Assembly (NCBI RefSeq): GCF_003946885.1
Contig: NZ_RWKQ01000040.1
Coordinates: 1,164 to 34,459 of the forward strand
Source: Specibacter cremeus
Lineage (GTDB): Bacteria; Actinomycetota; Actinomycetes; Actinomycetales; Micrococcaceae
DNA length: 33,296 nucleotides
Direction of reading: 5' to 3'
In this document: positions 9,128-29,324 of the stretch, piece after piece
How the letters are laid out: every line of letters starts with the position of its first letter
Position numbering within the stretch: position 1 is the stretch's first letter
The notes under the pieces: model-generated
Databases searched by the model: none
Seen by the model: the letters and a program-made list of their open reading frames with translations, nothing else
Told to the model about the DNA's origin: nothing
Position numbers and translations under genes: made by a program

Positions 9128-9169
9128 TGGTGTCCTTGGCAGGTTGTCGGGGGCAGAGGAGCAGGTGAC

Positions 9170-9652: not shown

Positions 9653-9918
9653 GGAGTTGTCCTTTCGGTGGGGCGGAAGGGAGGCTGTTTTCCACTATCG
9701 GCACTCGACGGCTCGGCGTTAGCGGGCAGCCGCCCAGCAGTTGTACTCGAAACGTTATGGAACTTTTCAGTAACACATGCGTGCGCCACGCTCGAATGGG
9801 CGCTTCTGCCCTTACAGTGGGGATCGTCTCATGCCGCACGTGGCCGGGGTCTCAACTGGGGGAGCCGGCCGCGTTGCTTTGCCAGTTTTGTTGAGGGGAA
9901 TCTGGAGGGAATCTGGGG
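9653..9918. promoter_or_regulatory. Divergent intergenic region between flgN and fliA
   Basis: At 266 bases this is the longest gene-free stretch. It holds the flgN sigma-28 site (9695-9721, minus). On the plus strand I find no GCCGATAG-type site for fliA. TACAGT at 9813-9818 sits in a CCCTTACAGTGGGG context close to that of the lut -10, but has no good -35. Close to the fliA start an 11-base unit, GGGAATCTGGA, is repeated in tandem (9896-9917). Confidence 0.6.
9695..9721 (-). promoter_or_regulatory. Sigma-28 (FliA) type promoter for flgN-flgK-flgL-fliW
   Basis: On the minus strand TAAC (9718-9721), exactly 15 bases and GCCGATAG (9695-9702) match the enteric sigma-28 pattern TAAA-N15-GCCGATAA. 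The same architecture recurs at four other sites in the window. The expected start near 9688 leaves a leader of about 36 bases before flgN. Confidence 0.88.
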
Positions 9919-10740
9919 GTGGAACGTGATGAACGTGACCGGCTCGTGGTGGAAAATTTGCCGCTGGTGGGGTTTCTGGTCAATGAGTTGTGCCTGAGGG
10001 CAGACCATTTGTCGCGGGAGGATTTGGCGCAGGCGGGGGCCGAGGCGCTGATCCGGTGCGCGGAGTCGTTTGACGAGGGGCTGGGCGTGCCGTTCGGCGC
10101 CTATGCCCGCCGCCGGATCAAGGGGGCCTTCGCCGACGAATTGCGCCGGGACGACTGGGCGACGCGCGGGGCACGATCGCGGATGGGCGAGCTGGCCGGC
10201 ATGCAGGAGGCGCTCACCGCGTCACTGGGCCGGACGCCGACCACCGGGGAGCTTGCCGCCGCGCTCGGGGTGGACCGGGCCTCCGTCGAGGCGTCGCGGC
10301 AGGACGCCGCGCGCAGCGTGACGCCGCTGACGGACACCATCGCCGAAATCGTGGCGGTGTCCGCGGGGTCCCCGGGCCTGCCCGAGGACCAGGTGGTGCG
10401 CGACGAGCACGACGCTTTCCTGACCCACGCGGTGGCCGCACTGCCGGAGAAGATGCGCTACATCGTCGAGGCGGTCTACTACGAGGACCGCAGCGTCAAG
10501 GAGCTGGCGGAAGAGCTCGGGTCGAGCCACTCCGCCGTCTCGCAGCAGCGGGCCGAGGCCATGCGGCTGCTGCGCGACGGGCTGGAACGGCACTACCTGG
10601 CGACGGCGGACGAGTCGACGCCGGCGCATGCCCGCATCTCGGCGACCCGGCGCGAGGAGTACCTGGCGGAGTTGGGTACCCGGACGCTCGGCGGGATCAC
10701 GCGGACCCGGGCCGCCCTGGCCGTGCCGGCCGCCGGGTGA
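9919..10740 (+). CDS. fliA: FliA-like sigma-28 RNA polymerase sigma factor
   Basis: A 273-residue group 3 sigma factor. Region 2 is clear (ENLPLVGFLVNEL, LSREDLAQAGAEALIRCAESFD, FGAYARRRIKGAFADELRRDDW). Region 3 spans about residues 90-130 (LGRTPTTGELAAALGV). Region 4 has a helix-turn-helix (VKELAEELGSSHSAVSQQRAEAMRLL). FliA/WhiG-class factors read promoters like the five found here. The GTG at 9919 follows GGAGGG (9904-9909) by nine bases. About 40 residues extend past region 4. It could be a WhiG-type factor, but its position at the head of the flagellar genes favours FliA. No anti-sigma FlgM gene was recognised. Confidence 0.88.
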   Translation: MERDERDRLVVENLPLVGFLVNELCLRADHLSREDLAQAGAEALIRCAESFDEGLGVPFGAYARRRIKGAFADELRRDDWATRGARSRMGELAGMQEALTASLGRTPTTGELAAALGVDRASVEASRQDAARSVTPLTDTIAEIVAVSAGSPGLPEDQVVRDEHDAFLTHAVAALPEKMRYIVEAVYYEDRSVKELAEELGSSHSAVSQQRAEAMRLLRDGLERHYLATADESTPAHARISATRREEYLAELGTRTLGGITRTRAALAVPAAG

Positions 10741-10803
10741 TCGAGCCTGTCCCCTCGGTGATTGAGCCTGTCGAAATCAGGTGACGGGTCTCGACAGGCT
10801 CGA
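10741..10803. repeat. Palindromic repeat cluster with two alternative stems downstream of fliA
   Basis: The 11-base arm at 10764-10774 (GAGCCTGTCGA) pairs perfectly with 10791-10801. A second left arm at 10741-10751 (TCGAGCCTGTC) pairs perfectly with 10793-10803, so the two stems exclude each other. The cluster starts directly after the fliA stop and could end that transcript. The GAGCCTGTCGA / TCGACAGGCTC pair is a motif I recall as frequent between genes of Micrococcales. Confidence 0.75.
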
Positions 10804-10835
10804 CTCCCGGCCCAGGATCGACCCCCGGGGGCTCC

Positions 10836-10862
10836 TAACGGCGGGCGCCGGGGTGCCGACAG
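10836..10862 (+). promoter_or_regulatory. Sigma-28 (FliA) type promoter for fliC
   Basis: TAAC (10836-10839), 15 bases and GCCGACAG (10855-10862), followed by TGG, match the shared motif of this locus. The start near 10869 gives a leader of about 57 bases to the flagellin ATG. That leader holds the CsrA-like sites listed separately. A perfect CCCCCGGGGG palindrome lies just upstream of the -35 element. Confidence 0.88.
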
Positions 10863-10872
10863 TGGCGGGTAA

Positions 10873-10918
10873 GCTGCCCACGGACGGGCGGCGACAGCGA
10901 CACCCAACTCACGGAGGA
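10873..10918 (+). promoter_or_regulatory. CsrA-like binding sites in the flagellin leader
   Basis: A seven-pair stem (10873-10879 with 10886-10892, one G-U pair) closes a six-base loop ACGGAC (10880-10885). This is the ANGGA-in-loop form preferred by CsrA/RsmA proteins. A second ACGGA (10911-10915) overlaps the Shine-Dalgarno GGAGGA (10913-10918) seven bases before the ATG. The pairing of an upstream hairpin with a site on the ribosome-binding site is the layout known for Bacillus hag. The binding is predicted, not shown. Confidence 0.55.
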
Positions 10919-10925
10919 CTCAACC

Positions 10926-12104
10926 ATGGGCATGCAAGTCAACACCAACCTCGCGGCAAACAACGCCTACCGCAACCTCAACAACACCCAGAATGCGCTG
11001 TCCAAGTCGATGGAGAAGCTCTCCAGCGGCCTGCGCATCAACCGTGCCGCGGACGACGCCGCCGGCCTGGCCATCTCGGAAGGCCTGAAGTCCCAGGTCA
11101 ACGGCTACACCGTCGCGGCCCGCAACGCCCAGGACGGCATCTCCGTCGTGCAGACCGCTGAAGGCGCCCTCACCGAGGTCAACTCCATCCTGCAGCGCCT
11201 GCGTGACCTGGCCGTCCAGGCCGGTAACGACTCGAACAACACGGATTCCCGCGACGCCATCAAGAAGGAAGCCACCCAGCTGTCCTCCGAGCTGACGCGC
11301 ATCTCCCAGACGACGAACTTCAACGGCACCAAGCTGCTCGACGGTTCGGCGAACCTGAACTTCCAGGTCGGTGCCGACGGCAACGCGGCGTCCACCATCA
11401 AGGTCGACCTGACCAAGGCCAACGTCGGTGGCATCGCCAGCGCCCTCACGGTCGGCGGCGCGTCCACCGGCACGACGTTCAACATCGCGGCATTCAACGC
11501 AGCGACCGGCGACCCGACCGGCCTGAACGCGGGAACGTACACGTTCAAGTCGGTCAAGGGCGGCGTCACGACCACCGTCGCCGTGACCACCGCCTCGAAT
11601 GCCACGACGGCGGATGACTTCGCCGCCCAGCTGAACAAGGACGCCGGGTTCTCGGCCGGGTACACGGCCACCGTGGTGAAGAACGCGAACGGCACCGGCT
11701 CGGCCATCACCATCAGCGCCAACGACGGCGGCGCCGTGGACACGGTTGACCCGTCCGGCAGCGGCGTGTTCAATGCCGGCACCGCGGCCGCCCCGGGCGC
11801 CGGCCTGGACTTCAGCAGCAATGCCGGTGCACAGTCGGCCATCAACCAGATCGACACCCAGATCAAGGCCGTCTCCGCCGCGCGCGCCGACATCGGCGCC
11901 GTGCAGAACCGCATGGAGTCCGCCATCAACAGCCTGAACGTCGGCAAGGAAAACCTGACGGCGGCGTCGTCCCGCATCACGGACGTCGACATGGCCTCGG
12001 AGATGGTGAGCTTCACCCGCTCCAACATCCTCTCGCAGGCCGGCACGGCAATGCTGGCGCAGGCCAACCAGAGCAACCAGGGCGTCCTGAAGCTCCTCGG
12101 CTAA
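10926..12104 (+). CDS. fliC: Flagellin (filament subunit)
   Basis: A 392-residue flagellin, the extracellular filament subunit. The N-terminal D0/D1 region (residues about 1-160) has the family sequence MQVNTNLAANNAYRNLNN, KLSSGLRINRAADDAAGLAI and ISQTTNFNGTKLLDG. The C-terminal D1/D0 (about 300-392) has RADIGAVQNRMESAINSL, DVDMASEMVSFTRSNIL and a final QGVLKLLG. Residues about 165-295 form a threonine/alanine-rich variable domain with a YTFKSVKGG stretch like flagellin D2 inserts. The ATG at 10926 has a strong GGAGGA. It is the first gene after its sigma-28 promoter, and fliD and fliS follow. Confidence 0.96.
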   Translation: MGMQVNTNLAANNAYRNLNNTQNALSKSMEKLSSGLRINRAADDAAGLAISEGLKSQVNGYTVAARNAQDGISVVQTAEGALTEVNSILQRLRDLAVQAGNDSNNTDSRDAIKKEATQLSSELTRISQTTNFNGTKLLDGSANLNFQVGADGNAASTIKVDLTKANVGGIASALTVGGASTGTTFNIAAFNAATGDPTGLNAGTYTFKSVKGGVTTTVAVTTASNATTADDFAAQLNKDAGFSAGYTATVVKNANGTGSAITISANDGGAVDTVDPSGSGVFNAGTAAAPGAGLDFSSNAGAQSAINQIDTQIKAVSAARADIGAVQNRMESAINSLNVGKENLTAASSRITDVDMASEMVSFTRSNILSQAGTAMLAQANQSNQGVLKLLG

Positions 12105-12117
12105 ACCTGACACACCG

Positions 12118-12178
12118 GCCGGGGCGCAGGCCCCGGCAGCCGTGGCGGCCGCGCACCAGAGCGTGCGCGGCCGCCGCG
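12118..12178 (+). terminator. Two GC-rich hairpins between fliC and fliD
   Basis: A 7-bp hairpin (12118-12124 with 12131-12137) is followed by a 12-bp perfect stem (12144-12155 with 12164-12175), extendable to 15 bp including a G-T pair, around an 8-base loop. No T-tract follows. Because fliD has no recognisable promoter of its own, this is probably a partial terminator or an mRNA-stabilising 3' end for the abundant fliC message. Confidence 0.6.
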
Positions 12179-12212
12179 GCGCCACACACGTACTGACGAG
12201 GGGAACCGCCAC

Positions 12213-13595
12213 ATGGGCATGGGCATCGACGGGATGGTTTCGGGCCTGGACACGACCTCCATCATCAACGCGCTCATCGCCGCGGAGGCCCGTCCGCAGA
12301 CCTTGATGAAGAACGCGGTCACCACGGACTCCGCGCTCCTGACCGCCATGCAGGGGCTCAACACCAAGTTCGCGGCCCTCGCCACGCAGGCCGGCGCCAT
12401 CGCCAAGACCGGCGGGCTGGACATGTACCAGGCCTCCTCGAGCTCCAGCGCCATCACCGTCTCGGCCTCCTCCGCCGCACGCACCACGAGCCTGGACCTC
12501 ACCGTGGACCGGCTCGCGACGGCGCACGCGGTGGTCAGCGCGCCCCTCACCGCATCGCCCGGCACCACAATGACCTTCGTGCGCCCGGACGGCACCAACA
12601 CCCAGGTGACGGCGGCCAGCACCAGCCTGGACGACATGGCGTACGCCATCAACCACTCCGCCGCCGGCATCTCCGCCGTCAAGGTCGCCGCCGGCCAGGA
12701 CGGCACCGGCGCCACCGTGTACCGGCTCCAGCTCACCGCCAGCGACACCGGTGCGGCGCACCAGTTCACCGCCGTGTTCGGCAGCAAGGCGGAGTACGAC
12801 GCCGGGACCGCGCCGACGCTGCTGGGTGCGGCCGGCGCGGCCACCCTGCGCACCGGCCAGGACGCCCAGGTCACCTTGTGGGCCGGCACCCCGGCGGCCA
12901 CCAGCATCACGAGCGCGGGCAACACGTTCACGGCGATCGCCCCGGGCCTGGACATCACCGTCAACCAGGTCACGACAGACCCGGCCACCGTCACGGTCGC
13001 CAGGGATTCCGCCAAGGTCACGGCCACCGCAAAGGACCTGACCAGCAGCATCAACATCATCCTCGGCTCGATCTTCACCCAATCGACCGTGGCGACGTCC
13101 GGCAGCGGGGCCGGCGCCACCGTCACGGGCGGCCTCTTCACCGGCGACAGCACCACCACCACCGCCAAGAACGCGCTGTTCAACGCCGTGACCGCGCCCA
13201 TCAACGGCAATTCCCCGGCCTCGATCGGCATCAACTCGACGAAGAACGGCGACTTCTCCTTCGACGCGGACGCCTTCGCCGCCGCCTACGCCAAGGACCC
13301 GGCCACCGTCCAGCAGACATTGCAGACCATCGCGGACCGCGTGTCCGCGGCCGCAACGTCCGTCTCCGACCCGACCGATGGCACGCTGTCGCAGCGCATC
13401 AAGGGCCAGCAGGCGGTCATCGACGACCTGAACGGCCAGATCCTCAACTGGGACGACCGGCTCGCCGCGCGCCGGTCCTCCCTCCAGGCCGTCTACACGA
13501 ACCTTGAGGTCCAGCTGAGCAAGATGCAATCGCAGCAAAGCTGGCTGACCGCGCAGATCAACTCGTTCTCCTCCAGCGGAAGCAGTTCCAAGTGA
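12213..13595 (+). CDS. fliD: FliD, filament cap protein (HAP2)
   Basis: A 460-residue capping protein that promotes flagellin polymerisation at the filament tip. The N-terminal FliD_N domain opens with GIDGMVSGLDTTSIINALIAAE. The C-terminal FliD_C domain ends in a long helix (DDLNGQILNWDDRLAARRSSLQAV, then LSKMQSQQSWLTAQINSFSSS). The ATG at 12213 follows GAGGGG by nine bases; an in-frame ATG two codons later is also possible. It is separated from fliC by hairpins and overlaps fliS by four bases (GTGA). It is exported unprocessed, with FliS- and FliT-type chaperones expected nearby. Confidence 0.94.
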   Translation: MGMGIDGMVSGLDTTSIINALIAAEARPQTLMKNAVTTDSALLTAMQGLNTKFAALATQAGAIAKTGGLDMYQASSSSSAITVSASSAARTTSLDLTVDRLATAHAVVSAPLTASPGTTMTFVRPDGTNTQVTAASTSLDDMAYAINHSAAGISAVKVAAGQDGTGATVYRLQLTASDTGAAHQFTAVFGSKAEYDAGTAPTLLGAAGAATLRTGQDAQVTLWAGTPAATSITSAGNTFTAIAPGLDITVNQVTTDPATVTVARDSAKVTATAKDLTSSINIILGSIFTQSTVATSGSGAGATVTGGLFTGDSTTTTAKNALFNAVTAPINGNSPASIGINSTKNGDFSFDADAFAAAYAKDPATVQQTLQTIADRVSAAATSVSDPTDGTLSQRIKGQQAVIDDLNGQILNWDDRLAARRSSLQAVYTNLEVQLSKMQSQQSWLTAQINSFSSSGSSSK

Positions 13596-14017
13596 CCGTC
13601 CAACAGGCCCGTGCCCTGAACGCCTACCAGCGCGAGGCCGTCCTCTCCGCCTCCCCGGCCCGGTTGCTCACCCTGCTCTACGACCGGTTGCTGCTGGACC
13701 TGGCCCGCGCGGCGGAGGCCCAGGGTACCCAGGACTGGCCGGCCGCGCACGAGCTCCTGATCCACGCCCAGGACATCATCGCCGAACTGTCGGCCACGCT
13801 CGAGCCGGGCGCTTGGGACGGCGCGGACCACCTGGCGGGCCTGTACAGCTACGCCGGCACAGCGCTCATGAACGCCAACATCCACCGCGACCCGGCGCCC
13901 GTCCGCGACTGCATCTCGCTGCTGGAGCCGCTGCGCCAGGCCTGGCACGAGGCGGCGGCCACACCAGCTGACGGTGTTTCGGCGGCCAGTGTTTCGGAAG
14001 GCAGGGTGCCGGCATGA
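13592..14017 (+). CDS. fliS: FliS, flagellin export chaperone
   Basis: A 141-residue helical cytoplasmic chaperone that keeps flagellin unpolymerised before export. The signature LNAYQREAVLSASPARLLTLLYDRLLLDLARA (residues about 9-40) and the later LYSYAGTALMNANIHRDP are classic FliS. The start is GTG at 13592 within the end of fliD. A short alanine/serine tail follows the domain. Its stop overlaps the next small gene (ATGA), giving a fliC-fliD-fliS-(fliT-like) unit. Confidence 0.92.
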   Translation: MTVQQARALNAYQREAVLSASPARLLTLLYDRLLLDLARAAEAQGTQDWPAAHELLIHAQDIIAELSATLEPGAWDGADHLAGLYSYAGTALMNANIHRDPAPVRDCISLLEPLRQAWHEAAATPADGVSAASVSEGRVPA

Positions 14018-14310
14018 GCATCTGGCCGGACATCCTCGACACCTTGGAGGCGGAGGTGGCACTGGCCCGCACGCTGGCACGGGCCCAGGCCCACGCCGTC
14101 GCGCGCCAGACCGGCCCCGCCTGGGAGCCGTCGGCCGATCCGGGCCCGCTGCCCGCCGACCTGGCGGGCCGCGCGCGGCGGATCGCCGCCGCGCAGGTGG
14201 AGGCCGTCGCCTCGCTCCGGGAGGCCATGGGCGAGACCGCAGCCCGGCTGGGGCAGGCCGCACCGGCGCGCCGCGAGGCCCGATCCGTGTACCTGGACGT
14301 CATCGGCTGA
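14014..14310 (+). CDS. Small helical protein in the fliT position
   Basis: A 98-residue protein, almost entirely predicted helix and rich in alanine, arginine and glutamate, with no membrane segment (starts MSIWPDILDTLEAEVALART). It overlaps fliS by four bases (ATGA) and is the last gene before the flgB promoter. In many bacteria this position holds fliT, the chaperone for the FliD cap. The size and helical character fit, but I see no diagnostic FliT motif. Treat it as a candidate FliT-like chaperone of unproven function. Confidence 0.6.
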   Translation: MSIWPDILDTLEAEVALARTLARAQAHAVARQTGPAWEPSADPGPLPADLAGRARRIAAAQVEAVASLREAMGETAARLGQAAPARREARSVYLDVIG

Positions 14311-14359
14311 TCGGTCGCTCCTTTTCGGCCGCAACGACGGACGACGACGGCGGCCCGCC

Positions 14360-14386
14360 TTACGCGCCTCACGGCGTTGCCGATAG
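14360..14386 (+). promoter_or_regulatory. Sigma-28 (FliA) type promoter for the flgB operon
   Basis: TTAC (14360-14363), 15 bases and GCCGATAG (14379-14386), followed by TGG, match the locus motif. The start near 14393 gives a leader of about 65 bases to flgB. This places basal-body, C-ring and export ATPase genes under FliA. Confidence 0.88.
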
Positions 14387-14393
14387 TGGGGGA

Positions 14394-14431
14394 TGAGCAC
14401 GGACCGCTCACTTCCAGGCCACGGATCGGCC
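14394..14431 (+). promoter_or_regulatory. Two consecutive GGA-loop hairpins in the flgB leader
   Basis: TGAGC (14394-14398) pairs with GCTCA (14406-14410) around the loop ACGGACC. GGCC (14417-14420) pairs with GGCC (14428-14431) around the loop ACGGATC. Both loops present ACGGA, the same core as in the fliC leader. Neither overlaps the Shine-Dalgarno GAGGAA (14445-14450). CsrA binding is inference; the stems are short. Confidence 0.4.
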
Positions 14432-14457
14432 CCCCTACTTCGGCGAGGAATTGCGCA

Positions 14458-14799
14458 GTGCTGGATTCTGTGGTCACCGTGGCGTTGACGAGCGCGCTCA
14501 ACGGGCTGTCCGAACGGCAGCGCGCCATCGCGGACAATATCTCCAACGTCAACACCCCCGGGTACCGGGCCAAGCGGGTGCAGTTCGAGGACGCCCTGGC
14601 CGCATCGGTGCGTGCCGGCAGCGGCGCCGCGGCCGCGACCACCGGGCTGTCCATGGAGCCCACCCAGCTGAACGGGAACAACGTCAACCTGGACACCGAG
14701 ACGCTCTCCAACATCGAGACGACGTTGCGGTACCAGTTCGCCGCGCAGGCCGTCAACGGCGAGTTCACCGCCATGCGCACCGTGTTGAAGGCCAACTGA
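14458..14799 (+). CDS. flgB: FlgB, proximal rod protein
   Basis: A 113-residue rod protein. The N-terminal rod signature is plain (LTSALNGLSERQRAIADNISNVNTPGYRAKRVQFEDAL), and the C-terminus is LRYQFAAQAVNGEFTAMRTVLK. The GTG at 14458 was chosen: GAGGAA lies seven bases upstream, while an earlier in-frame ATG at 14377 overlaps the promoter -10. It is the first gene of an eleven-gene run of overlapping or closely spaced genes to flgE. The flgC ATG overlaps its stop. The protein is secreted through the flagellar gate and assembles on FliE and the MS ring. Confidence 0.93.
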   Translation: MLDSVVTVALTSALNGLSERQRAIADNISNVNTPGYRAKRVQFEDALAASVRAGSGAAAATTGLSMEPTQLNGNNVNLDTETLSNIETTLRYQFAAQAVNGEFTAMRTVLKAN

Positions 14800-15185
14800 T
14801 GGCCGACGCAATCGGGATCGCCTCCACCGGCCTGACCCTGCACCGCAAGTGGCTCGACGCGGTCTCCGACAACCTGGCCAACGCGAACACGGCCACGCGG
14901 ACCAGCGCCCAGGCGTTCCGCGCCCGCTACGTGCTGGCCGAGGCCGGCACGGGCACCTCGGGGGTGTACGTGGCCGGGGCCGCCTATGGGGACGCCACCG
15001 GCCGGCTGGTCCACGAACCGGACAACCCGCTGGCCGACGCGCAGGGGTACGTGCGCTACCCGGACATCGACCTCGCCTCCCAGATGGGGCAGCTGATCAT
15101 GGCCCAGCGCGGCTACCAGGCCAACGCGGCCGTCGTCGACCGGGCCAAGACCATGTACGAGGCCGGATTGCAGATTGGAAAGTAA
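14799..15185 (+). CDS. flgC: FlgC, proximal rod protein
   Basis: A 128-residue rod protein. The N-terminus ASTGLTLHRKWLDAVSDNLANANTA is a variant of the rod/hook signature. The C-terminus VRYPDIDLASQMGQLIMAQRGYQANAAVVDRAKTMYEAGLQIGK is the highly conserved FlgC ending. The ATG at 14799 overlaps the flgB stop by one base (TGATG). The upstream open frame is not rod-like. It is exported and built into the rod with FlgB. Confidence 0.94.
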   Translation: MADAIGIASTGLTLHRKWLDAVSDNLANANTATRTSAQAFRARYVLAEAGTGTSGVYVAGAAYGDATGRLVHEPDNPLADAQGYVRYPDIDLASQMGQLIMAQRGYQANAAVVDRAKTMYEAGLQIGK

Positions 15186-15188
15186 CCG

Positions 15189-15494
15189 ATGAGCCTTCAA
15201 CCCATCGCCGGCGTCACCGCCACCGCGTACCTTCCCGACGCGACCGGCACGCCCGGGTCCGCCGCCGCGCCCGGCTCCGGGTTCGGCACGGCGCTGGCCG
15301 GCGCCCTCGACAACGTCCAGACGCTCTCCGCGGACGCGAACAAGCTGGCCGTGCAGGCCGTCACCGGCAACCTCGACGACATCCACCAGGCCACGCTCGC
15401 CGCGACCCGCGCCCAGGTCACGCTCGAACTCGTCTCCACCCTGCGCAACAAGGGTGTCGAGGCGTTCAACGACATCATGCGGATGCAGGCCTGA
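15189..15494 (+). CDS. fliE: FliE, MS-ring/rod junction protein
   Basis: A 101-residue protein of the hook-basal body FliE family. The conserved half is residues about 40-101 (LAGALDNVQTLSADANKLAVQAVTG, DDIHQATLAATRAQVTLELVSTLRNKGVEAFNDIMRMQ), and the N-terminus is variable. FliE joins the MS ring to the rod and is an early export substrate. It starts three bases after the flgC stop, and its own stop overlaps the fliF ATG. Confidence 0.92.
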   Translation: MSLQPIAGVTATAYLPDATGTPGSAAAPGSGFGTALAGALDNVQTLSADANKLAVQAVTGNLDDIHQATLAATRAQVTLELVSTLRNKGVEAFNDIMRMQA

Positions 15495-17074
15495 TGCCCC
15501 CGGCCATTGCGAACGCCTGGGGCCGGGTTGCCGGGGCGGTGCGGGGATTCTCGTTCGCCCAGCGCACGCTGGCGATCCTCGCCGTCGCCGTGCTGGTCCT
15601 CGGCACGGTGGCGCTCACGGCCTGGCTGACCAAGCCCACGTATTCGCCGCTGTTCTCCGGCGTGTCGGCCGCGGACGCCAACTCGATCGTGTCCCAGCTC
15701 AAGACGGACAATGTCCCGTACCAGCTGGCCAACGGCGGGTCCACGATCCTGGTGCCGGACGCCAAGGTGTACGACGAACGCCTGAAGGCGGCCGCCGCCG
15801 GGCTGCCTTCCGCCACGACCGGCGGCTATTCGCTGCTGGACAACATGGGCGTCACGTCTTCCGAGTTCCAGCAGAACGTCACGTACAAGCGCGCCATGGA
15901 GGGCGAACTGGCCAAGACCATCATGGCCATGGATGGCGTGGCGAACGCGTCGGTGAAGCTGGCCATCCCGGAGAAGACGGTGTTCACGTCGACGAAGACG
16001 GACCCGACGGCGTCCGTGTTCGTGGAGACCACCCCGGGCGCGCAGCTGGGCGACAACCAGGTCAATGCGATCGTGCACCTGACCTCGTCCGCCGTCGAGG
16101 GGCTCAAGCCGGCCAACGTGTCCGTCGTCGACGCGAAGGGCAACGTGCTCTCCACCGGCGGGGCCACCGGCAGCGCCGACAAGCAGGCCACCGACTACGA
16201 GGGCCGCGTGTCAGCCGACGTGCAGGCCATGCTGGACCGCGTGCTCGGACCGGGCAAATCAACCGTGTCGCTGACGGCCACCATGGACAAGACGTCCTCC
16301 GACATCGTGAAGGAATCGTTCAAGGCCCCGGCCGGCGGCGCCCCAGCGCTGAACGAATCATCCAGCTCGCAGAAGTCGACCGGCGGCACGGGGACCGGCG
16401 CGGGCGTCCTGGGCCCCGACAACATCGCCGTCCCGAACCCCTCCACGGCAGCCGGCGGCAACAGCGAGTCGACGCAGGCCACCCGGAACAACGGCGTGGA
16501 CAAGACGACCGAGAACACGACCGTCCCGGCCGGCATCCTGCAGCGCCAGTCCTTGTCCGTCGCCGTCGACAAGGGCGCCGCCGGCAGCATCGATGCGGCC
16601 ACGCTGACCGAGATGATCTCGACCGCGGCCGGTGTCAACACGGCCCGCGGCGACACCGTCACGGTCAAGCTGGTGCCGTTCTCCACCGCCGCGGCCGACG
16701 CCGCGAAGGCCGCCCTGGACGCGGCCCGGAAGGAGGCCGACGCGGCCGCCACTGCGGCAACGTGGCGCAACATCGGGCTGGGTGCGTTCGGTGTGCTCGT
16801 GGCGCTGCTGGCGCTGGTCCTGTACGCCCGGAAGAACCGCCGCCAGGTGCGCGAAATCGTCGACCTGGGCGAGAAGGCGGGCCCATTCGTCCAGGTGGAG
16901 TCACTGCCGCTGACGTCGGCGCTGCCCGCCATCCCGGAGCCCGTCATCCTGCCGGCGGCCGAGGAATCCGACAGCGGCGCCAAGCGCGCCTCGATCAACG
17001 CGCTGGCCGTCGCCGACCCGGAAAAGACGGCGGCCCTGTTGCGCTCGCTCATGGATGAGCGGGTGACCAAGTGA
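15494..17074 (+). CDS. fliF: FliF, MS-ring protein
   Basis: A 526-residue inner-membrane protein forming the MS ring. There are two membrane helices, at residues about 24-46 (LAILAVAVLVLGTVALTAWL) and 424-447 (IGLGAFGVLVALLALVLYA). Between them lie the ring-building domains (LFSGVSAADANSIVSQLK, then the YscJ/FliF core with EGELAKTIMAMDGVANASVKLAIPE). The cytoplasmic tail ends with a FliG-binding segment (PEKTAALLRSLMDERV). The length is typical. The ATG at 15494 overlaps the fliE stop (TGATG). The stop overlaps the fliG GTG. Confidence 0.95.
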   Translation: MPPAIANAWGRVAGAVRGFSFAQRTLAILAVAVLVLGTVALTAWLTKPTYSPLFSGVSAADANSIVSQLKTDNVPYQLANGGSTILVPDAKVYDERLKAAAAGLPSATTGGYSLLDNMGVTSSEFQQNVTYKRAMEGELAKTIMAMDGVANASVKLAIPEKTVFTSTKTDPTASVFVETTPGAQLGDNQVNAIVHLTSSAVEGLKPANVSVVDAKGNVLSTGGATGSADKQATDYEGRVSADVQAMLDRVLGPGKSTVSLTATMDKTSSDIVKESFKAPAGGAPALNESSSSQKSTGGTGTGAGVLGPDNIAVPNPSTAAGGNSESTQATRNNGVDKTTENTTVPAGILQRQSLSVAVDKGAAGSIDAATLTEMISTAAGVNTARGDTVTVKLVPFSTAAADAAKAALDAARKEADAAATAATWRNIGLGAFGVLVALLALVLYARKNRRQVREIVDLGEKAGPFVQVESLPLTSALPAIPEPVILPAAEESDSGAKRASINALAVADPEKTAALLRSLMDERVTK

Positions 17075-20166: not shown

Positions 20167-20606
20167 TGGGCAACACGTTCAGGCTGGCCGGGTTGTTGCG
20201 GTTCCGGCAGGTGCAGGCGGATGAGGCCGCGGGCGTGCTGGCCCGCACCAACGGCCGGCGGCGGGCGCACCAGGACGCGATCGCGGCCGCCCGCGACAAA
20301 CTGGGGACCACGCCCGGGGAGCCCGGTTCGGCGGCGGCGCTGGCGGCGGCGGCGGCCGCCCGGTCGGCGGCCCGGCACATGCTGGCGGACCTGCACGCCC
20401 TGACCGACTCGCTCGACGACGCGGCCCGCGCGGCCGAGGCCGACCTGGTTGCCGCCAAGACGGCGTCCAGCACGCTGGAAAAACTGGCCGACCAGCACGC
20501 CGCCGCCCTCCTGGTGGAGGACCTGCGTGCCGAGCAGCAGGTGCTGGATGAGCTGTCCGGGACGCTGTACCGGGCGGGGACGCCCGGTGCGGGAGTCGGC
20601 CGATGA
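20166..20606 (+). CDS. fliJ: FliJ, flagellar export stalk protein
   Basis: A 146-residue, strongly coiled-coil cytoplasmic protein starting FRLAGLLRFRQVQADEAAGVLARTN, the typical FliJ opening. A long run of alanine, arginine and glutamate heptads follows. FliJ acts like the gamma stalk between the FliI ring and FlhA. Sequence conservation is low, so the call relies on the opening, the coiled coil and its place directly after fliI. The ATG overlaps the fliI stop. The stop overlaps fliK. Confidence 0.85.
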   Translation: MGNTFRLAGLLRFRQVQADEAAGVLARTNGRRRAHQDAIAAARDKLGTTPGEPGSAAALAAAAAARSAARHMLADLHALTDSLDDAARAAEADLVAAKTASSTLEKLADQHAAALLVEDLRAEQQVLDELSGTLYRAGTPGAGVGR

Positions 20607-22279
20607 GCATCCCGGCGTCCTTCGACCTGCCCGCATCGTTTGAACCGCCGGCCGGTGGGTCCACTCCCCGCGCCGACGCGGCGGGCCGCGGCGGTGGGTT
20701 TGCCGAACGGCTGCGCCACGCCCGGCTCAAGGACATGTCCGGGGCGACTGTCCCGCCCGGAAACGACGTCCCGCGCGGGACGCCTGGATCCGGTGGCACC
20801 GGATCTGCGGGCCCTGGATTCGACGTCCCCGGATTCGACGTCCCCGGGTCCGGGGTGGCCGGGCCTGACGTGGCCGGCGCGCTCTTGCCGAACCCGACCG
20901 GTCCGGATCCCGCCGCAACAACGGGTATCACTGCCGTGAGTGCGTTCGCCTTTGCTGCCGCACCGCCCGTGCCGACCGGGCCGGCCGTGCCGACCGGTAC
21001 GTCGGCCGGGGCCGTTCTCGCGGCACAGGCCACGGCGACCGCCGCGAGTGGGAGCTTGGCCGCTGGACTGGCTACGGGACCGGACACGACTTCGGCGGCC
21101 GGTCCCGGACCGTCGACGACCCGCGATGGCGGCGGCACCGCCGGGGTGCCGGTTGCCGGGATGCCTTCGGCCTCAATGCCCGACGCCGCGGTGCCTGTGG
21201 TCTCAATGCCCGTTCCCGGTGCACGGGGGCCCGTTCCGGCCCCTGCGAGCGGACTGACGACCGGCATCCAGGCCCCCGGAATTGGGACGTCCGGCACTGC
21301 GACTCCCGGCACTGCGACTCCCGGTACCGTGCCGCCCTCGGCTGGCACGGCCACGGCGGCAGACTCCACTCCGTCGACCGCTCCGCCGACTGGGCCAGCG
21401 ACCGCTCCGGCCGGCCAGGCCCGCCCGGGGTCGTCGGGCATGCCTGCCGCCGGTCCCGCCGCCGGGAACCCGCAGGCCGTGTCACTGGGCATTGACGGCG
21501 CAGGCATTGACGGCGCATGTATTGATGGCGCACGGGGCGCAGCCGCGGCGACCGGTGCCGTCACGGCCGCCACGGGCCAGCCGGTGACCGACGCGGTCCC
21601 GGCCGCTCTGGCCGACCAAGCCGACAAGCCGGCGGCCGGGACCGCGAACGGCGCCCCCGCCCACGATCCGGCGATCGGCGCCAACCGGGCCGCAGACCCC
21701 GCAGCCAACCCCGTGCTGGCGCCGAGCGGCCCGGCCGCGGCGACTTCCGTCGTCGTGCCTTCCCCCGCCGCCGCGACGACACCGCCGCCAACCACCCAGC
21801 CGGTCCCGACGCTCGTCGACCAGCTGGCCAAGCCGCTGTTCACGTTGTCGGGCGCGCCGGAGGGGCGGCATGTGATGACGGTCGAGGTGGTGCCTGATGC
21901 GCTGGGACCCGTGACCGTGCGGGCGCACATCGGCGCCGACGGCATCCGGATCGAGTTGCTGTCCGGCACCGACGCCGGGCGTGACGGGCTGCGCGCCATC
22001 CTGGCCGACCTCCGGCGCGACCTGGCCGGGCAGGGCATGAACTCGTCGCTGAGCCTCGGCTCCGGGACATCCGGCGACCCCGGCAGGCCCGGCGGCTGGA
22101 CCGCCGGTGGCTGGAACCCGGGCGGCTCGAACCCGGGTGGCTGGAACCCCGGCCAGGGATCCGGGCGCGAGTCCGGGCGCGATGCGGACGGCCCCTACCG
22201 CGCTCCCGGGCCGGACCCGGCACCCGCACGCGGGGCCGCCGGGACGCGGACCGGCAGCACCTTGGACATCACGGTTTAG
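20603..22279 (+). CDS. fliK: FliK, hook-length control protein with repeat-rich ruler
   Basis: A 558-residue FliK-like protein. The C-terminal Flg_hook domain, about residues 395-485, is recognisable (LFTLSGAPEGRHVMTVEVVPDALGPVTV, GIRIELLSG, LRAILADLRRDLAGQGM). It switches export specificity when the hook is finished. The first 390 residues are alanine/proline/glycine/threonine-rich low complexity that should behave as the ruler. Four tandem arrays of 15-bp units (pentapeptide repeats) are visible at 20816-20845, 21293-21322, 21488-21532 and 22091-22150; the last lies after the hook domain. It overlaps fliJ by four bases and precedes flgD. Confidence 0.85.
   Translation: MSIPASFDLPASFEPPAGGSTPRADAAGRGGGFAERLRHARLKDMSGATVPPGNDVPRGTPGSGGTGSAGPGFDVPGFDVPGSGVAGPDVAGALLPNPTGPDPAATTGITAVSAFAFAAAPPVPTGPAVPTGTSAGAVLAAQATATAASGSLAAGLATGPDTTSAAGPGPSTTRDGGGTAGVPVAGMPSASMPDAAVPVVSMPVPGARGPVPAPASGLTTGIQAPGIGTSGTATPGTATPGTVPPSAGTATAADSTPSTAPPTGPATAPAGQARPGSSGMPAAGPAAGNPQAVSLGIDGAGIDGACIDGARGAAAATGAVTAATGQPVTDAVPAALADQADKPAAGTANGAPAHDPAIGANRAADPAANPVLAPSGPAAATSVVVPSPAAATTPPPTTQPVPTLVDQLAKPLFTLSGAPEGRHVMTVEVVPDALGPVTVRAHIGADGIRIELLSGTDAGRDGLRAILADLRRDLAGQGMNSSLSLGSGTSGDPGRPGGWTAGGWNPGGSNPGGWNPGQGSGRESGRDADGPYRAPGPDPAPARGAAGTRTGSTLDITV
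20816..20845 (+). repeat. 15-bp tandem duplication in fliK
   Basis: Two identical copies of GGATTCGACGTCCCC (20816-20830 and 20831-20845) encode the pentapeptide repeat GFDVP-GFDVP. A more diverged GSGVA/GPDVA pair follows at once, suggesting an older, decaying array. Confidence 0.9.
21293..21322 (+). repeat. 15-bp tandem duplication in fliK
   Basis: Two identical copies of GGCACTGCGACTCCC (21293-21307 and 21308-21322) encode GTATP repeats. A partly matching third unit (GGTACCGTGCCGCCC) follows. Confidence 0.9.
21488..21532 (+). repeat. Three 15-bp tandem units in fliK
   Basis: GGCATTGACGGCGCA occurs twice in perfect copy (21488-21502, 21503-21517) and a third time with four changes, three of them in its first three bases (21518-21532). 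It encodes GIDGA-GIDGA-CIDGA. Confidence 0.9.
22091..22150 (+). repeat. Four 15-bp tandem units in the fliK 3' end
   Basis: Units at 22091-22105, 22106-22120, 22121-22135 and 22136-22150 share the pattern GG(C/T)GGCT(G/C)GAACCC. They encode GGWTA, GGWNP, GGSNP and GGWNP, a glycine/tryptophan/asparagine tail placed after the hook-domain region. Confidence 0.9.
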
Positions 22280-22304
22280 ATCACGACTTGGAAAGGAGCA
22301 CCCC

Positions 22305-22796
22305 TTGAGCATTGGCGCCACAGAGCCCGCAGCGCCCGTCGGTTCGACGTCCCCCGTTGCACCGGCCACCGCGGTGACCGGGCTGTACAACACGTCCCAG
22401 GGTCGCAAGCCCAAACAGGTCATGGACTCCGCAGTGTTCATGAACCTGCTCGTCACGCAGCTGCGCAACCAGGACCCGTCCTCGCCCATGGACACGAACC
22501 AGATGATCTCGCAGACGACGCAGCTGGCCACCATGGAGAAGCTGACCAGCATGGACACGACGGCCACCGAGAACTTCTCGCTGCAGATGCGCACGTCCGC
22601 CGCCGCGCTGATCGGACAGCTCGTGTCCTGGAAGGACGCCGACGGGGCCGAGCATTCCGGCATCGCCGGCGCCGTCTCCTTCGCCGGGTCCGTTCCCACC
22701 GTGACGATCGGCACCGACAAGGTGGCGCTCGACTCGATTTCCGGCGTCACCACGACGCCGGCCCCCACACCGACCGCCGCAGTACCCACCGCCTAG
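22305..22796 (+). CDS. flgD: FlgD, hook-cap scaffolding protein
   Basis: A 163-residue protein that caps the growing hook. The conserved N-terminal region is clear (MDSAVFMNLLVTQLRNQDPSSPMDTNQMISQTTQLATMEKL, residues about 40-80). The C-terminal half is short, as in Gram-positive FlgD, and ends in a proline/threonine tail. No ATG fits; TTG at 22305 is chosen because GAAAGGAG (22290-22297) lies just upstream. It follows fliK by 25 bases and precedes the hook gene by 12. It is exported and lost when the hook is complete. Confidence 0.92.
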   Translation: MSIGATEPAAPVGSTSPVAPATAVTGLYNTSQGRKPKQVMDSAVFMNLLVTQLRNQDPSSPMDTNQMISQTTQLATMEKLTSMDTTATENFSLQMRTSAAALIGQLVSWKDADGAEHSGIAGAVSFAGSVPTVTIGTDKVALDSISGVTTTPAPTPTAAVPTA

Positions 22797-22808
22797 AAAG
22801 GTTCTTCC

Positions 22809-23981
22809 ATGCTTCGCTCCCTGTACTCCGGCATCTCCGGACTCCGCTCGCACCAGACCATGCTCGACGTGACGGGCAACAACATCGCGAATGTCAACAC
22901 GGCCGGCTTCAAGTCCTCGACCGTGCAATTCCAGGACACGCTGTCCCAGGTGACCAAGTCCGGCTCCGCCGCGCAGGCGGCCGTCGGCGGCACGAACCCG
23001 GCCCAGGTCGGCCTCGGCGTCCAGGTGGCCGGCATCTCCACGAACTTCGCCCAGGGCTCGGCCCAGGCCACGGGCCGCTCGACCGACATGATGATCTCCG
23101 GGGACGGATTCTTCGTCACCAGCAAGGGCGGCCAGCAGCTGTTCGCCCGCGCCGGGTCGTTCGACTTCGACACGCAGGGCCGCCTCGTCTCCCCGGACGG
23201 TGCGCTGCTGCAGGGCTGGGCGGCCGTGAACGGGCAGGTCAACACGGGCGGGGCGCTCGGCAACCTGGCGATCTCCAAGGCCATGACGACGCCGTCGGCG
23301 GCCACCACGAGCACCGTCCTCGGCGGCAACCTGCCCAGCGACGCGGCCGCCGGCACCAAGCTGGTCCGCGACGTGCAGGTGTTCGACGCGTCCGGCGCCA
23401 AGCGCAACGTCTCGCTCGAGTTCACCCGCACGGCCGCCGGCTGGGACGTGGCCGGCACCGACGGCGGCACGACCGGCAACACGTCGCTGACGTTCAATCC
23501 GGACGGCACGCCGGCCGGCGGCGGCGTCATGGCCCTCGGCGGCATCACCGTGGACCTGGCCAACGTCACCGGCTATGCGAACCTGTCCACCGTGGCCGTG
23601 ACCAGCAGCAACGGCAATGCGGCCGGCACGCTCGAGTCCTTCGCGCTGGGCGCCGACGGAACCCTGACGGGCACGTTCAGCAATGGCGAGAACGCCGTCA
23701 TCGGCAGGGTGGCGCTGGCAAACTTCACGAACCCGGGGGGTCTGGAGAAGGATGGCAACTCCAGCTACCGGGCCACGGCATCCTCCGGCGGTGCCGTGAT
23801 CGGAGCACCCGGCCAGGGCGGGCTGGGGGAGCTGGCCGGCGGGTACGTGGAGATGTCCAACGTGGACCTGTCGCAGGAATTCACCAACCTGATCGTGGCC
23901 CAGCGCGGCTTCCAGGCCAACGCCCGCATCATCACCACCTCCGACGAGGTGCTGCAGGAACTCACGCAGCTCAAGCGGTAG
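22809..23981 (+). CDS. flgE: FlgE, hook protein
   Basis: A 390-residue hook protein. The N-terminal signature (MLRSLYSGISGLRSHQTMLDVTGNNIANVNTAGFKSSTVQFQD), the middle D1 segment (GDGFFVTSKGGQQLFARAGSFDFDTQGRLVSPDG) and the C-terminal end (SNVDLSQEFTNLIVAQRGFQANARIITTSDEVLQELTQLKR) are all standard. The length is nearer FlgE than FlgF/FlgG, and the position after fliK-flgD supports hook. The ATG follows AGAAAGG. It ends the flgB-flgE unit; a strong inverted repeat follows. Confidence 0.93.
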   Translation: MLRSLYSGISGLRSHQTMLDVTGNNIANVNTAGFKSSTVQFQDTLSQVTKSGSAAQAAVGGTNPAQVGLGVQVAGISTNFAQGSAQATGRSTDMMISGDGFFVTSKGGQQLFARAGSFDFDTQGRLVSPDGALLQGWAAVNGQVNTGGALGNLAISKAMTTPSAATTSTVLGGNLPSDAAAGTKLVRDVQVFDASGAKRNVSLEFTRTAAGWDVAGTDGGTTGNTSLTFNPDGTPAGGGVMALGGITVDLANVTGYANLSTVAVTSSNGNAAGTLESFALGADGTLTGTFSNGENAVIGRVALANFTNPGGLEKDGNSSYRATASSGGAVIGAPGQGGLGELAGGYVEMSNVDLSQEFTNLIVAQRGFQANARIITTSDEVLQELTQLKR

Positions 23982-24003
23982 CCCATTCGGGGCTTGCGGC
24001 CGT

Positions 24004-24060
24004 CCAGTGATCGATACATCGGGGTGAGGAGCCCCAACACCCCGATGTATCGATCACTGG
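24004..24060. terminator. Perfect 23-bp inverted repeat after flgE
   Basis: Arms 24004-24026 and 24038-24060 are exact reverse complements (first bases CCAGTGATCGATACATCGGG) around an 11-base spacer. It begins 22 bases after the flgE stop and ends 16 bases before the next sigma-28 site. That fits a unit boundary, but there is no T-tract. The stem is longer and less GC-rich than normal terminators. Confidence 0.8.
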
Positions 24061-24076
24061 ATCCGGCAGTCCCGGC

Positions 24077-24103
24077 TAACGGCGGGCCCGAGTCGGCCGA
24101 CAG
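24077..24103 (+). promoter_or_regulatory. Sigma-28 (FliA) type promoter for swrD-motA-motB
   Basis: TAAC (24077-24080), 15 bases and GCCGACAG (24096-24103) match the locus motif. The start near 24110 gives a leader of about 60 bases before the 24170 ATG. Confidence 0.85.
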
Positions 24104-24169
24104 TGTGCGGTGACAGGAGAACGGGAGAAGATACCGGACACCGCGTGCGCGCCGAAGGATGGGCAGAAC

Positions 24170-24463
24170 ATGATTGTGGTAACCCGGTTGGACGGGCGCC
24201 AATTCGCGCTGAACCCGGATCTCATCGAGCGGATCTTCGAGTCCCCGGACACGACCGTCGTCATGGCCGACGGCGCCCGCTACATCGTCACAGAGTCGAT
24301 GCAGCAGGTCATCGAGCGGATCGCCCGCTTCCGTGCCCGCGTCATCTCGCTCGCCCGCGACTACACGGACGACGCCGATGCCCCCAACCCGTTCGACTCG
24401 CCGCGATTGAGCATCATCCACCCGGCCGGACCGGCCGACGGACCCGCGAAGCCGGGAAGGTAG
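24170..24463 (+). CDS. swrD: FlbD/SwrD family flagellar motor protein
   Basis: A 97-residue cytoplasmic protein of the small FlbD family (Bacillus SwrD, not the Caulobacter regulator FlbD). The family core MIVVTRLDGRQFALNPDLIERIFESPDTTVVMADGARYIVTES is followed by a helix and an acidic, proline-containing tail of about 30 residues. SwrD raises motor power in Bacillus subtilis. The ATG at 24170 has GAAGGA ten bases upstream; the in-frame ORF start at 24110 is not family-like. It lies three bases before motA, which supports a role with the stator. Confidence 0.88.
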   Translation: MIVVTRLDGRQFALNPDLIERIFESPDTTVVMADGARYIVTESMQQVIERIARFRARVISLARDYTDDADAPNPFDSPRLSIIHPAGPADGPAKPGR

Positions 24464-24466
24464 GCC

Positions 24467-25273
24467 ATGGATCCGGCAACCATCATCGGCGTCCTCATCG
24501 CGTTCGGCGCGCTGGTGGGCATGATCACCCTCGAGGGCTCGTCCGTGACGGCGATCCTGCTGCCGCCGCCGATGATCCTCGTATTCGGCGCCACGATCGC
24601 CGTCGGCATCGCCGGATCGACCATCAAGGACACGCTGCACGCGTTCAAGTCGCTGCCGCGGGCGTTCACCGGCAAACCGCCCAAGCCGGCCGAAAGCATC
24701 GACGCTGTCGTGGCGCTCGCCGAGAAGGCGCGGCGCGAGGGCCTGCTCGCGCTCGAGGAGGATGCCGCCGCCACCAAGGACCCGTTCCTGCGCGAGGCCC
24801 TGCAGAACATTGCCGACGGCGTGGACGGTGACGAACTCCGCGTCCTGCTCGACGACGCCATCGAGACGAAGATCAAGGGCGACCGCACGGCCGCCGGATT
24901 CTTCCAGTCCCTGGGCGGCTATGCGCCGACCGTGGGCATCATCGGCACCGTCGTCTCGCTCACCCACGTGCTGGAGAATCTGTCCGATCCCAGCGCGTTG
25001 GGCCCCATGATCGCCAGCGCCTTCGTGGCCACGCTGTGGGGCCTGCTGTCCGCGAACTTCCTCTGGCTTCCCCTCGGTGCCCGGCTCAACCGGCTCTCCG
25101 ACCTCGAGGTGGACCGCATGACGCTCATCATGGAAGGCGTCCTGGCGGTGCAGTCCGGTTCGCAGCCGACGCTGCTGCGCGAACGGCTCACGGCCCTGGT
25201 GCCCGCCCACCACCGAAACGGCCGTGACAAGCCCGGCAAGGGCGGTTCCGGCCCGATGAAGTCGGCGGCGTGA
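24467..25273 (+). CDS. motA: MotA, stator ion-channel subunit
   Basis: A 268-residue inner-membrane protein with four helices in the MotA/TolQ pattern. Two are near the N-terminus (IIGVLIAFGALVGMITL, PPPMILVFGATIAVGIAG), then a large cytoplasmic loop, then two late helices (APTVGIIGTVVSL and MIASAFVATLWGLLSANFLWLPLG). The conserved prolines of the third and fourth helices are present. With MotB it forms the stator channel that drives FliG. Which ion is used cannot be decided here. The ATG follows GGAAGG. Its stop overlaps the motB GTG. Confidence 0.95.
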   Translation: MDPATIIGVLIAFGALVGMITLEGSSVTAILLPPPMILVFGATIAVGIAGSTIKDTLHAFKSLPRAFTGKPPKPAESIDAVVALAEKARREGLLALEEDAAATKDPFLREALQNIADGVDGDELRVLLDDAIETKIKGDRTAAGFFQSLGGYAPTVGIIGTVVSLTHVLENLSDPSALGPMIASAFVATLWGLLSANFLWLPLGARLNRLSDLEVDRMTLIMEGVLAVQSGSQPTLLRERLTALVPAHHRNGRDKPGKGGSGPMKSAA

Positions 25274-26073
25274 GCCCGGCCCGCCGACGCCGCCGCGGCT
25301 CCGGCGGCGGCGACCACAACGACGAACGCTGGATGGCCTCCTACATGGACATGGTCACGGTGCTCATGTGCATGTTCATCGTCCTGTACGCCATGTCCAG
25401 CGTCGACAATGCGAAGTTCGCGAAGCTCAAGGAATCCCTCGCCACCGGGTTCGGCCAGGTGCACACCCAGAAGGTGGACACGGCCAGCGGCATCATCGTC
25501 CCGCCCAAGGATGTGGGCAAGACCGGCCTGTTGACTGTCAACGACATGGACCTGGCCCTCCGCGAGGCCGACCGGCTCACGGCGCTGCGCGACACCATGC
25601 ACAGCCGGCTCATGGCCCGCGGCCTGGACGGCAATGTGCAGTTCAAGATCGACGAACGCGGCCTGAGTGTGAAGCTGGTCGGGTCCCAGACGTTCTTCCT
25701 GCCGGACAGCCCGCAGCTGTCCACCCGGGCCACGGCCGTGCTGGACACCATCGCGCCCGTGCTCGTCGGGTCCGGCCTGCAGGTTTCCGTGGAGGGGCAT
25801 GCCGCCAACGCCATCACCGGGTATCCGTCCGTGTGGGAGCTGTCGGTCGAGCGTGCCGTCGGTGTGGTGCGGTACCTGGTGGAGCGCCGGGACCTGCCCG
25901 GGGGGCGGGTCATGGCGACGGGGTTCGGCGCCACCCGGCAGGTCAATGACGACTCCACCGAGGCGTTGCGGGAACTGAACCGGCGGGTGGACATCGTGGT
26001 CCTCTCCGACCAGCCGGAGAGCGTCCGGGCCCTGATCCCGGAGGCGTTGAAGGCGCGCGCGAACCGCTCCTAA
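25270..26073 (+). CDS. motB: MotB, stator peptidoglycan-anchoring subunit
   Basis: A 267-residue protein with an arginine-rich N-terminus, then one membrane helix WMASYMDMVTVLMCMFIVLYAMS. D27 in this helix corresponds to the essential ion-binding aspartate. The C-terminal OmpA-like domain binds cell wall (VSVEGHAANAIT, WELSVERAVGVVRYLVER, RVMATGFGATRQV, NRRVDIVVL). The GTG start overlaps the motA stop by four bases. The fliM promoter begins 12 bases after its stop. The fliL gene that often follows motB is absent. Confidence 0.94.
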   Translation: MSPARRRRRGSGGGDHNDERWMASYMDMVTVLMCMFIVLYAMSSVDNAKFAKLKESLATGFGQVHTQKVDTASGIIVPPKDVGKTGLLTVNDMDLALREADRLTALRDTMHSRLMARGLDGNVQFKIDERGLSVKLVGSQTFFLPDSPQLSTRATAVLDTIAPVLVGSGLQVSVEGHAANAITGYPSVWELSVERAVGVVRYLVERRDLPGGRVMATGFGATRQVNDDSTEALRELNRRVDIVVLSDQPESVRALIPEALKARANRS

Positions 26074-26084
26074 CGACCCGCTGC

Positions 26085-26111
26085 TTACGAAAGGCGCGGG
26101 CCTGCCGATAG
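26085..26111 (+). promoter_or_regulatory. Sigma-28 (FliA) type promoter for fliM-flhA
   Basis: TTAC (26085-26088), 15 bases and GCCGATAG (26104-26111), followed by TGG, match the locus motif. The fliM ATG lies only eight bases after the -10 box, so the message is probably leaderless or nearly so. Confidence 0.87.
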
Positions 26112-26119
26112 TGGCGGAC

Positions 26120-27738: not shown

Positions 27739-27743
27739 AGGAC

Positions 27744-27771
27744 ACGTTCTGGTGGATACGTTCTAGTGGAT
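27744..27771 (+). repeat. Tandem duplication of the fliO start region
   Basis: The 14-base unit ACGTTCT(G/A)GTGGAT occurs twice (27744-27757 and 27758-27771). The first copy makes a four-codon reading frame, GTG-GAT-ACG-TTC-TAG (27752-27766), whose TAG overlaps the fliO GTG at 27766. AGAGGA (27737-27742) is well spaced for the first GTG, not the second. Confidence 0.85.
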
Positions 27772-29323: not shown

Positions 29324-29324
29324 C

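Follow-up and report, generated by a model that had tools for sequence, protein, structure and literature searches.

In textbook flagella the order of assembly comes from staged transcription, with FlgM restraining sigma-28. For Actinoplanes missouriensis, Jang et al. 2016 reportedly described one conserved sigma-28-like promoter before the flagellar genes, with a -35 element that is said to read CTCA, and are said to have proposed that one sigma factor serves them all. WhiG-like flagellar sigma factors are described as transcribing the flagella genes of Actinoplanes in PMC8325347, where the sigma-28 (FliA) consensus is also quoted, as a -35 TAAA followed after about 15 bases by a -10 GCCGATAA; control of flagellin by CsrA and FliW is established in Bacillus (PMC7652899) and in Campylobacter (PMC4894983). 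Here we consider the flagellar locus of the soil bacterium Specibacter cremeus in a window of 33,296 nt, the whole stretch of DNA analysed, taken from a genome of 4.3 Mb. Five sites resembling sigma-28 promoters stand before five runs of flagellar genes, and it seems probable from the sequence comparisons that follow that a single sigma tier would serve the basal body, gate, motor, hook and filament, with order imposed on the messages through CsrA and FliW.

The motif TWAC-N15-GCCGAYAGTG matches the window exactly at five places, over all 29 bases and always with the same N15 spacing, and each place is a predicted promoter that recurs in related loci:

9693..9721, minus strand: FliA-type promoter of flgN-flgK-flgL-fliW; exact motif, kept before flgN in 47 of 51 loci
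10836..10864, plus strand: FliA-type promoter of fliC-fliD-fliS-orf; exact motif, kept before fliC in 44 of 58 loci
14360..14388, plus strand: FliA-type promoter of flgB to flgE; exact motif, kept before flgB in 53 of 64 loci
24077..24105, plus strand: FliA-type promoter of swrD-motA-motB; exact motif, kept before swrD in 45 of 51 loci
26085..26113, plus strand: FliA-type promoter of fliM to flhA; exact motif, kept before fliM in 37 of 41 loci

Allowing up to two mismatches, the window still holds 5 matches against 0.29 expected, and none of 100 shuffles reaches 5. Throughout the genome the exact motif has 5 copies, all at the flagellar locus, and the backward motif has none. The window sites have the form TAAC-N15-GCCGATAG, which agrees with the sigma-28 consensus except for one base of the -35 and the final base of the -10. 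A first-pass annotation of this DNA had called five such sites before flgN, fliC, flgB, swrD and fliM; all are present with the sequence and N15 spacing it gave, its intervals falling 2 bases short of the 29-base motif, and family searches bear out the downstream genes (swrD as FlbD).

The family of the host was sampled with 295 genomes, in 98 of which FliG was found and in 197 of which it was not, and the comparison loci are 60 FliG-centred stretches (from 58 of the 98 FliG-positive genomes), 6 named loci, of which Arthrobacter sp. H35-MC1 is the closest found (FliG 76% identical), and the window. About 220 bases upstream of each gene were scanned at fixed spacing, scores of at least 10.5 of 12 being accepted; genes that gave no tblastn hit, and upstream stretches shorter than 150 bases, were excluded from the site counts, from which misplaced rows were also removed (the fliC rows of L073 and L099 and one fliS control hit). 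The stretches vary in reach, some not covering all five genes, and since L031 and L043 look like one locus the counts are not fully independent. Three fetched stretches (L085, L087 and L101) have a second FliG and no flagellar cluster.

Across the 66 related loci and the window, a site stands at the five matching places in 226 of 265 upstream regions, compared with 1 of 732 upstream regions for 13 other flagellar genes taken as a control. At least one site occurs in 16 of the 17 sampled genera and all five in 10 of the 17, one genus (g4) having none; among the named loci, those of Arthrobacter have five sites; those of Cryobacterium show three or four within the stretch that each covers. Within each operon type the distance from site to gene is nearly constant. 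In the 249 accepted sites (misplaced rows account for two duplicates among them) the information lies mostly in the -35 and -10 columns and most spacer columns carry little, CCGA being almost invariant; as the sites were picked by matching, the independent evidence here is the flat spacer and the positions only. That the five sites would be promoters of one sigma-28-type factor is well supported by this pattern, from which we infer both promoter use and operon membership.

The sigma factor itself would be encoded beside the first two sites:

9919..10740, plus strand: fliA, sigma-28-like sigma factor; NCBIfam best match FliA_WhiG, closest solved chains FliA

It is the one FliA-like sigma found in its own genome, and FliA (at least 120 bits) and FliG occur together in 97 of the 295 genomes, while one genome, 82% complete, has FliG without FliA and one has FliA without FliG. 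Could the motif serve some other sigma factor or a DNA-binding regulator? The -35 reads TAAC and not the textbook TAAA, and the match of the fliA product to FliA_WhiG, at 123 bits, is under its cut-off of 189.6, but the -10 and the 15-base spacer fit the sigma-28 consensus, the genome has a single FliA-like sigma, FliA accompanies FliG in 97 of 98 genomes, and good sites are absent from the two g4 loci, whose genomes have a FliA only 33-34% identical and no site that reaches 10.5. On this evidence we consider either of these highly improbable. The sole fliC promoter seen in genus g4, that of L095, keeps GCCGATAA without a good -35.

Besides that score, the fliC sites, low-scoring in 14 of 58 loci, weigh against giving all five runs to FliA, and internal or read-through promoters are possible. 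The runs, as named from family searches, are as follows:

6484..9652, minus strand: flgN (9170-9652), flgK, flgL and fliW (6484-6849)
10926..14310, plus strand: fliC, fliD, fliS and a small open reading frame (ORF) without a Pfam match
14458..23981, plus strand: flgB, flgC, fliE, the fliF region, fliG, fliH, fliI, fliJ, fliK, flgD and flgE
24170..26073, plus strand: swrD (FlbD), motA and motB
26120..33296, plus strand: fliM, fliN, fliO, fliP, fliQ, fliR, flhB and flhA

Within them, fliF (the MS ring, an ORF without a Pfam match) and fliP are named by position alone, and the scores of fliJ and fliK are slightly under the Pfam cut-offs.

Where fliA stands in this scheme bears on a second alternative, that FliA boosts operons with additional housekeeping promoters and that the early genes do not depend on it, much as in the Bacillus fla/che operon, where a FliA-type boost comes on top of a housekeeping promoter. 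No FliA-type site precedes fliA in any of 40 loci, so that it would be switched on by something else and one upstream step remains; a TACAGT-like box shows upstream of it when nine loci of the genus are aligned, which is weak evidence for a housekeeping promoter of fliA. Both observations suit such an arrangement. Against it, the fliM start codon stands at a fixed distance from the FliA site and the flgB site lies at a nearly constant distance from its gene, and we regard it as quite unlikely. In some genomes (G236 and G084, for example) fliA lies near csrA and not between flgN and fliC. The view of the first-pass annotation that nearly the whole flagellum falls under a single FliA regulon is strongly supported by the comparison of 226 in 265 with 1 in 732, while the flatter hierarchy that it drew from this holds in part: its sole basis is promoter sequence, ordering may sit at the level of RNA, and the fliA step remains upstream.

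The tie between promoter and gene is closest at fliM:

26120..26122, plus strand: fliM start codon ATG, predicted to open a leaderless message; conserved spacing of exactly 8 nt from the -10 octamer

In a wider search a site was found before fliM in 38 of 41 loci, and all 38 have an ATG or GTG exactly 8 nt past the -10 octamer; in 37 of them this codon shares the reading frame of the FliM match. Sigma-28 transcription starts approximately there, about 8 nt after the -10, and with its start codon at the expected transcription start the message should be leaderless; fliM would then probably offer CsrA no leader.

The usual restraint on the sigma factor is not in evidence. FlgM reaches its cut-off in none of the 295 family genomes and has no match in the host's own genome, whereas three control genomes were matched; the sole weak match, in G051, scores 22 bits against a cut-off of 25. 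Later actinobacterial classes are described as being without FlgM (PMC10746217), and the same source counts 14 of 69 flagellated actinobacterial species without a chemosensory system. Among the 98 FliG genomes of this family none has an MCP signalling or CheW domain that passes the cut-off; the one genome where it is passed, G164, has no FliG match, and weak matches under the cut-off occur in G155 for MCP and in G153 and G270 for CheW. The whole family apparently swims without chemotaxis. An EID..LL-like CheY-binding motif near the start of FliM (26120-27028), sought with a loose pattern, is absent in all 38 loci, which fits the absence of chemotaxis.

The first-pass annotation had suggested a scan of the genome for further FliA targets, naming csrA, flgM and chemotaxis genes; of these, csrA lies behind the fliM run, and neither a flgM nor a chemotaxis gene was found. 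With up to two mismatches the motif has 44 matches genome-wide and the backward control 57, which is noise, and candidates from that list were rejected on these grounds; of the two extra matches with one mismatch, one falls within an ORF with a rhodanese domain and the other within a glycosyltransferase-like ORF. Chemotaxis genes were likewise dropped as targets, there being none over cut-off.

The start of csrA is about 1 kb past the end of the window, with one reading frame in between (L041:460-1424, between flhA and csrA; a single N at L041:460 is the first base beyond the window end). Both csrA and fliW are present in the genome and, judging by gene order, both plausibly fall inside the FliA regulon. 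Of the 98 FliG genomes 95 have CsrA over the Pfam cut-off, and none of the 197 others does; the three FliG genomes without it are the two of g4 and one that is incomplete. CsrA binds GGA displayed in short hairpin loops, frequently hexaloops (PMC7652899), and candidates of this kind are found in two of the leaders:

10876..10889, plus strand: fliC leader hairpin GCCC-ACGGAC-GGGC, candidate CsrA-type hexaloop; conserved loop, covarying stem
10911..10918, plus strand: ACGGAGGA, second A-N-GGA, overlapping the fliC Shine-Dalgarno; A-Y-GGAGGA in 57 of 57 aligned leaders
14395..14409, plus strand: flgB leader hairpin 1, GAGC-ACGGACC-GCTC; loop GGA conserved, 58 of 60 aligned leaders
14417..14431, plus strand: flgB leader hairpin 2, GGCC-ACGGATC-GGCC; loop GGA conserved, 58 of 60 aligned leaders

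The fliC leader gives the clearer picture. In its alignment (57 leaders, with L073, L095, L097 and L099 left out) the loop A-N-GGA lies at a fixed place in all 57, as does the second A-N-GGA over the Shine-Dalgarno. The stem covaries, 90.5% of pair cells being standard as against 71.7% when shuffled, with none of 500 shuffles as high, and among the 54 distinct rows an inner pair occurs as C-G (41), U-A (10) and G-C (2). Two GGA sites in a flagellin leader, one over the Shine-Dalgarno and one in a hairpin, are what marks the known flagellin checkpoint, and both are found here. Outside the alignment, the g4 locus L095 has a differing, longer stem with GGA in its loop and lacks the common A-N-GGA hairpin.

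For flgB the weight lies on conservation. Under a strict pattern, 56 of 64 leaders have two hairpins, 3 have one and 5 have none; the alignment holds 60, and of the four loci outside it L061, L095 and L096 are without such hairpins and L094 has both GGAs. A simple pattern, run over both strands of 63 loci (2.48 Mb), gives 169 hairpins in flgB and fliC leaders versus 126 elsewhere, and when hairpins are assigned to the nearest gene start, flgB and fliC are the genes that receive them. When the order was searched with a covariance model of the flgB leader, 34 of 218 genomes matched; they belong to 10 families, that of the window among them, and outside the window's family 26 of 28 matches lie before flgB. 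Rfam 15 has no match in the window at gathering score, and at the flgB leader it yields just two matches, both on the opposite strand and with E above 5. Two observations stand apart from these. Two genomes of family f9 have a second match to the leader model, a near copy accompanied by a -10-like box, at a place other than flgB (L122:4624-4716 and L128:4779-4869, minus strand), that of L122 preceding a 358-aa ORF without a Pfam match, a possible second target. The Shine-Dalgarno region of csrA (L041:1440-1459) reads CCACGGAAGGA and contains A-N-GGA, and autoregulation of csrA by CsrA is possible.

How might these elements work together? The sigma factor encoded at 9919-10740 would drive all five flagellar runs in one transcriptional tier, and, with no FlgM found to hold it back, order would probably be set on the messages instead. 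The fliM message, with csrA behind its run, would start at its start codon and so have no leader to regulate; the messages of flgB and fliC would bear A-N-GGA hairpins of the kind bound by CsrA. On fliC, CsrA would repress, its second site lying over the Shine-Dalgarno, until FliW, freed once flagellin has been exported, removes it. On flgB both sites are far upstream of the ribosome site, and there we favour stabilisation or activation, though either sign is possible. In its fullest form this is a proposal without a cascade, in which one sigma drives everything, CsrA protects or activates flgB, represses fliC and spares the leaderless fliM, FliW turns CsrA off at flagellin export, and the flgB leader would be a new cis-acting RNA found order-wide; that whole we offer tentatively, as one possibility.

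A good deal of the evidence on the leaders pulls the other way. The flgB stems hardly vary, so that covariation is uninformative there, and RNAalifold recovers hairpin 1 only. Folding of the 58 flgB leaders examined (L063, L064 and L094 being left out of the folding and switch analyses) is weak, with a mean probability of 0.44 for hairpin 1 and 0.19 for hairpin 2, and in the window hairpin 2 has a probability near 0 and a short fragment folds differently. Of the pattern hairpins, 115 are not close to any listed gene start. The window on its own holds 5, a count within the random range (shuffled copies average 2.8 and reach at most 7), which is why the argument has to rest on conservation. On the fliC side, 2 of 5 covariation measures are not above shuffles. 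The CsrA score, over the Pfam cut-off, is slightly under the NCBIfam cut-offs. Two loci, L063 and L064, have CsrA and keep the flgB stems and the fliC site, and both flgB GGAs are gone; this joint loss amounts to a natural experiment. Finally, both flgB hairpins and good FliA sites are missing from the two g4 loci, whose genomes are flagellated and complete and have no CsrA, but g4 is an imperfect control, as the fliC leader of L095 retains GCCGATAA and a stem with GGA in its loop.

Several of these points would sit well with a flat FliA regulon and nothing more, the leader hairpins being conserved for RNA stability or translation and CsrA not involved. Promoter conservation holds independently of the leaders, the flgB stems are weakly folded and without covariation, and L063 and L064 have CsrA without a flgB GGA. 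What speaks for CsrA is the invariant A-N-GGA loop of fliC on a stem that changes in pairs, the concentration of the hairpins in two leaders, and the want of flgB hairpins in the two flagellated, complete genomes that have no CsrA; taken together these make a regulon without CsrA unlikely in our estimation. Two other ideas about the leaders were set aside. A leader common to all five runs is not seen, the swrD and flgN leaders having no set-wide conserved hairpin. A switch between hairpin and start codon in flgB is too weak to claim: forcing the hairpins frees the start codon from 0.210 to 0.368, compared with 0.261 to 0.326 in shuffled sequences, the freeing rises in 41 of 58 leaders versus 45 of 58 controls (p 0.039 for the size of the rise, the sequences being related), and hairpin 1 pairs with the flgB start codon in some loci only.

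Returning to the reading in which CsrA and FliW order the messages of a single sigma tier, its interest is that staged transcription and restraint by FlgM are not evident here, so that the origin of the order of assembly becomes a direct question, for which the leaders, through their GGA loops, are testable candidates. The flgB leader, spread over 10 families of one order and without an Rfam match, is a defined RNA for work on actinobacterial CsrA, and fliM is a naturally occurring example of a promoter in fixed register with a start codon.

A flat FliA regulon is not new in kind, the reported precedent being Actinoplanes, although Actinoplanes missouriensis differs in that it forms zoospores and has several FliA-family sigmas; to our knowledge neither leader hairpins nor a leaderless fliM are known from Actinoplanes. 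The main text of PMC10746217 does not contain the word 'promoter', its sections 7 and 8 do not mention leaders, and the titles and abstract starts listed by searches of an open-licence library show no report of actinobacterial flagellar leaders of CsrA type or of a leaderless fliM. The resemblance to the Hag-FliW-CsrA checkpoint of Bacillus subtilis (PMC7652899) is close, with csrA, fliW and two candidate sites in the flagellin leader, one of them over the Shine-Dalgarno. Unlike in Bacillus, the basal-body leader here has two candidate sites as well, and the gene order differs, csrA standing behind the fliM run and fliW last in the flgN run. Stabilisation of flhDC by CsrA in E. coli (PMC7652899) offers a parallel for flgB, with the difference that flhDC is a master regulator and flgB is structural. 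In Campylobacter jejuni CsrA binds several flagellar messages beyond that of flagellin (PMC4894983), but there the genes fall into hierarchical RpoD, RpoN and FliA classes and flgB is hardly enriched, at most 1.6x in the table passage cited. Set beside these systems, the likely advance of the Specibacter cremeus locus is its second layer, in which two conserved leaders of CsrA type and a third, predicted leaderless message would join a single sigma tier that has no detectable FlgM.

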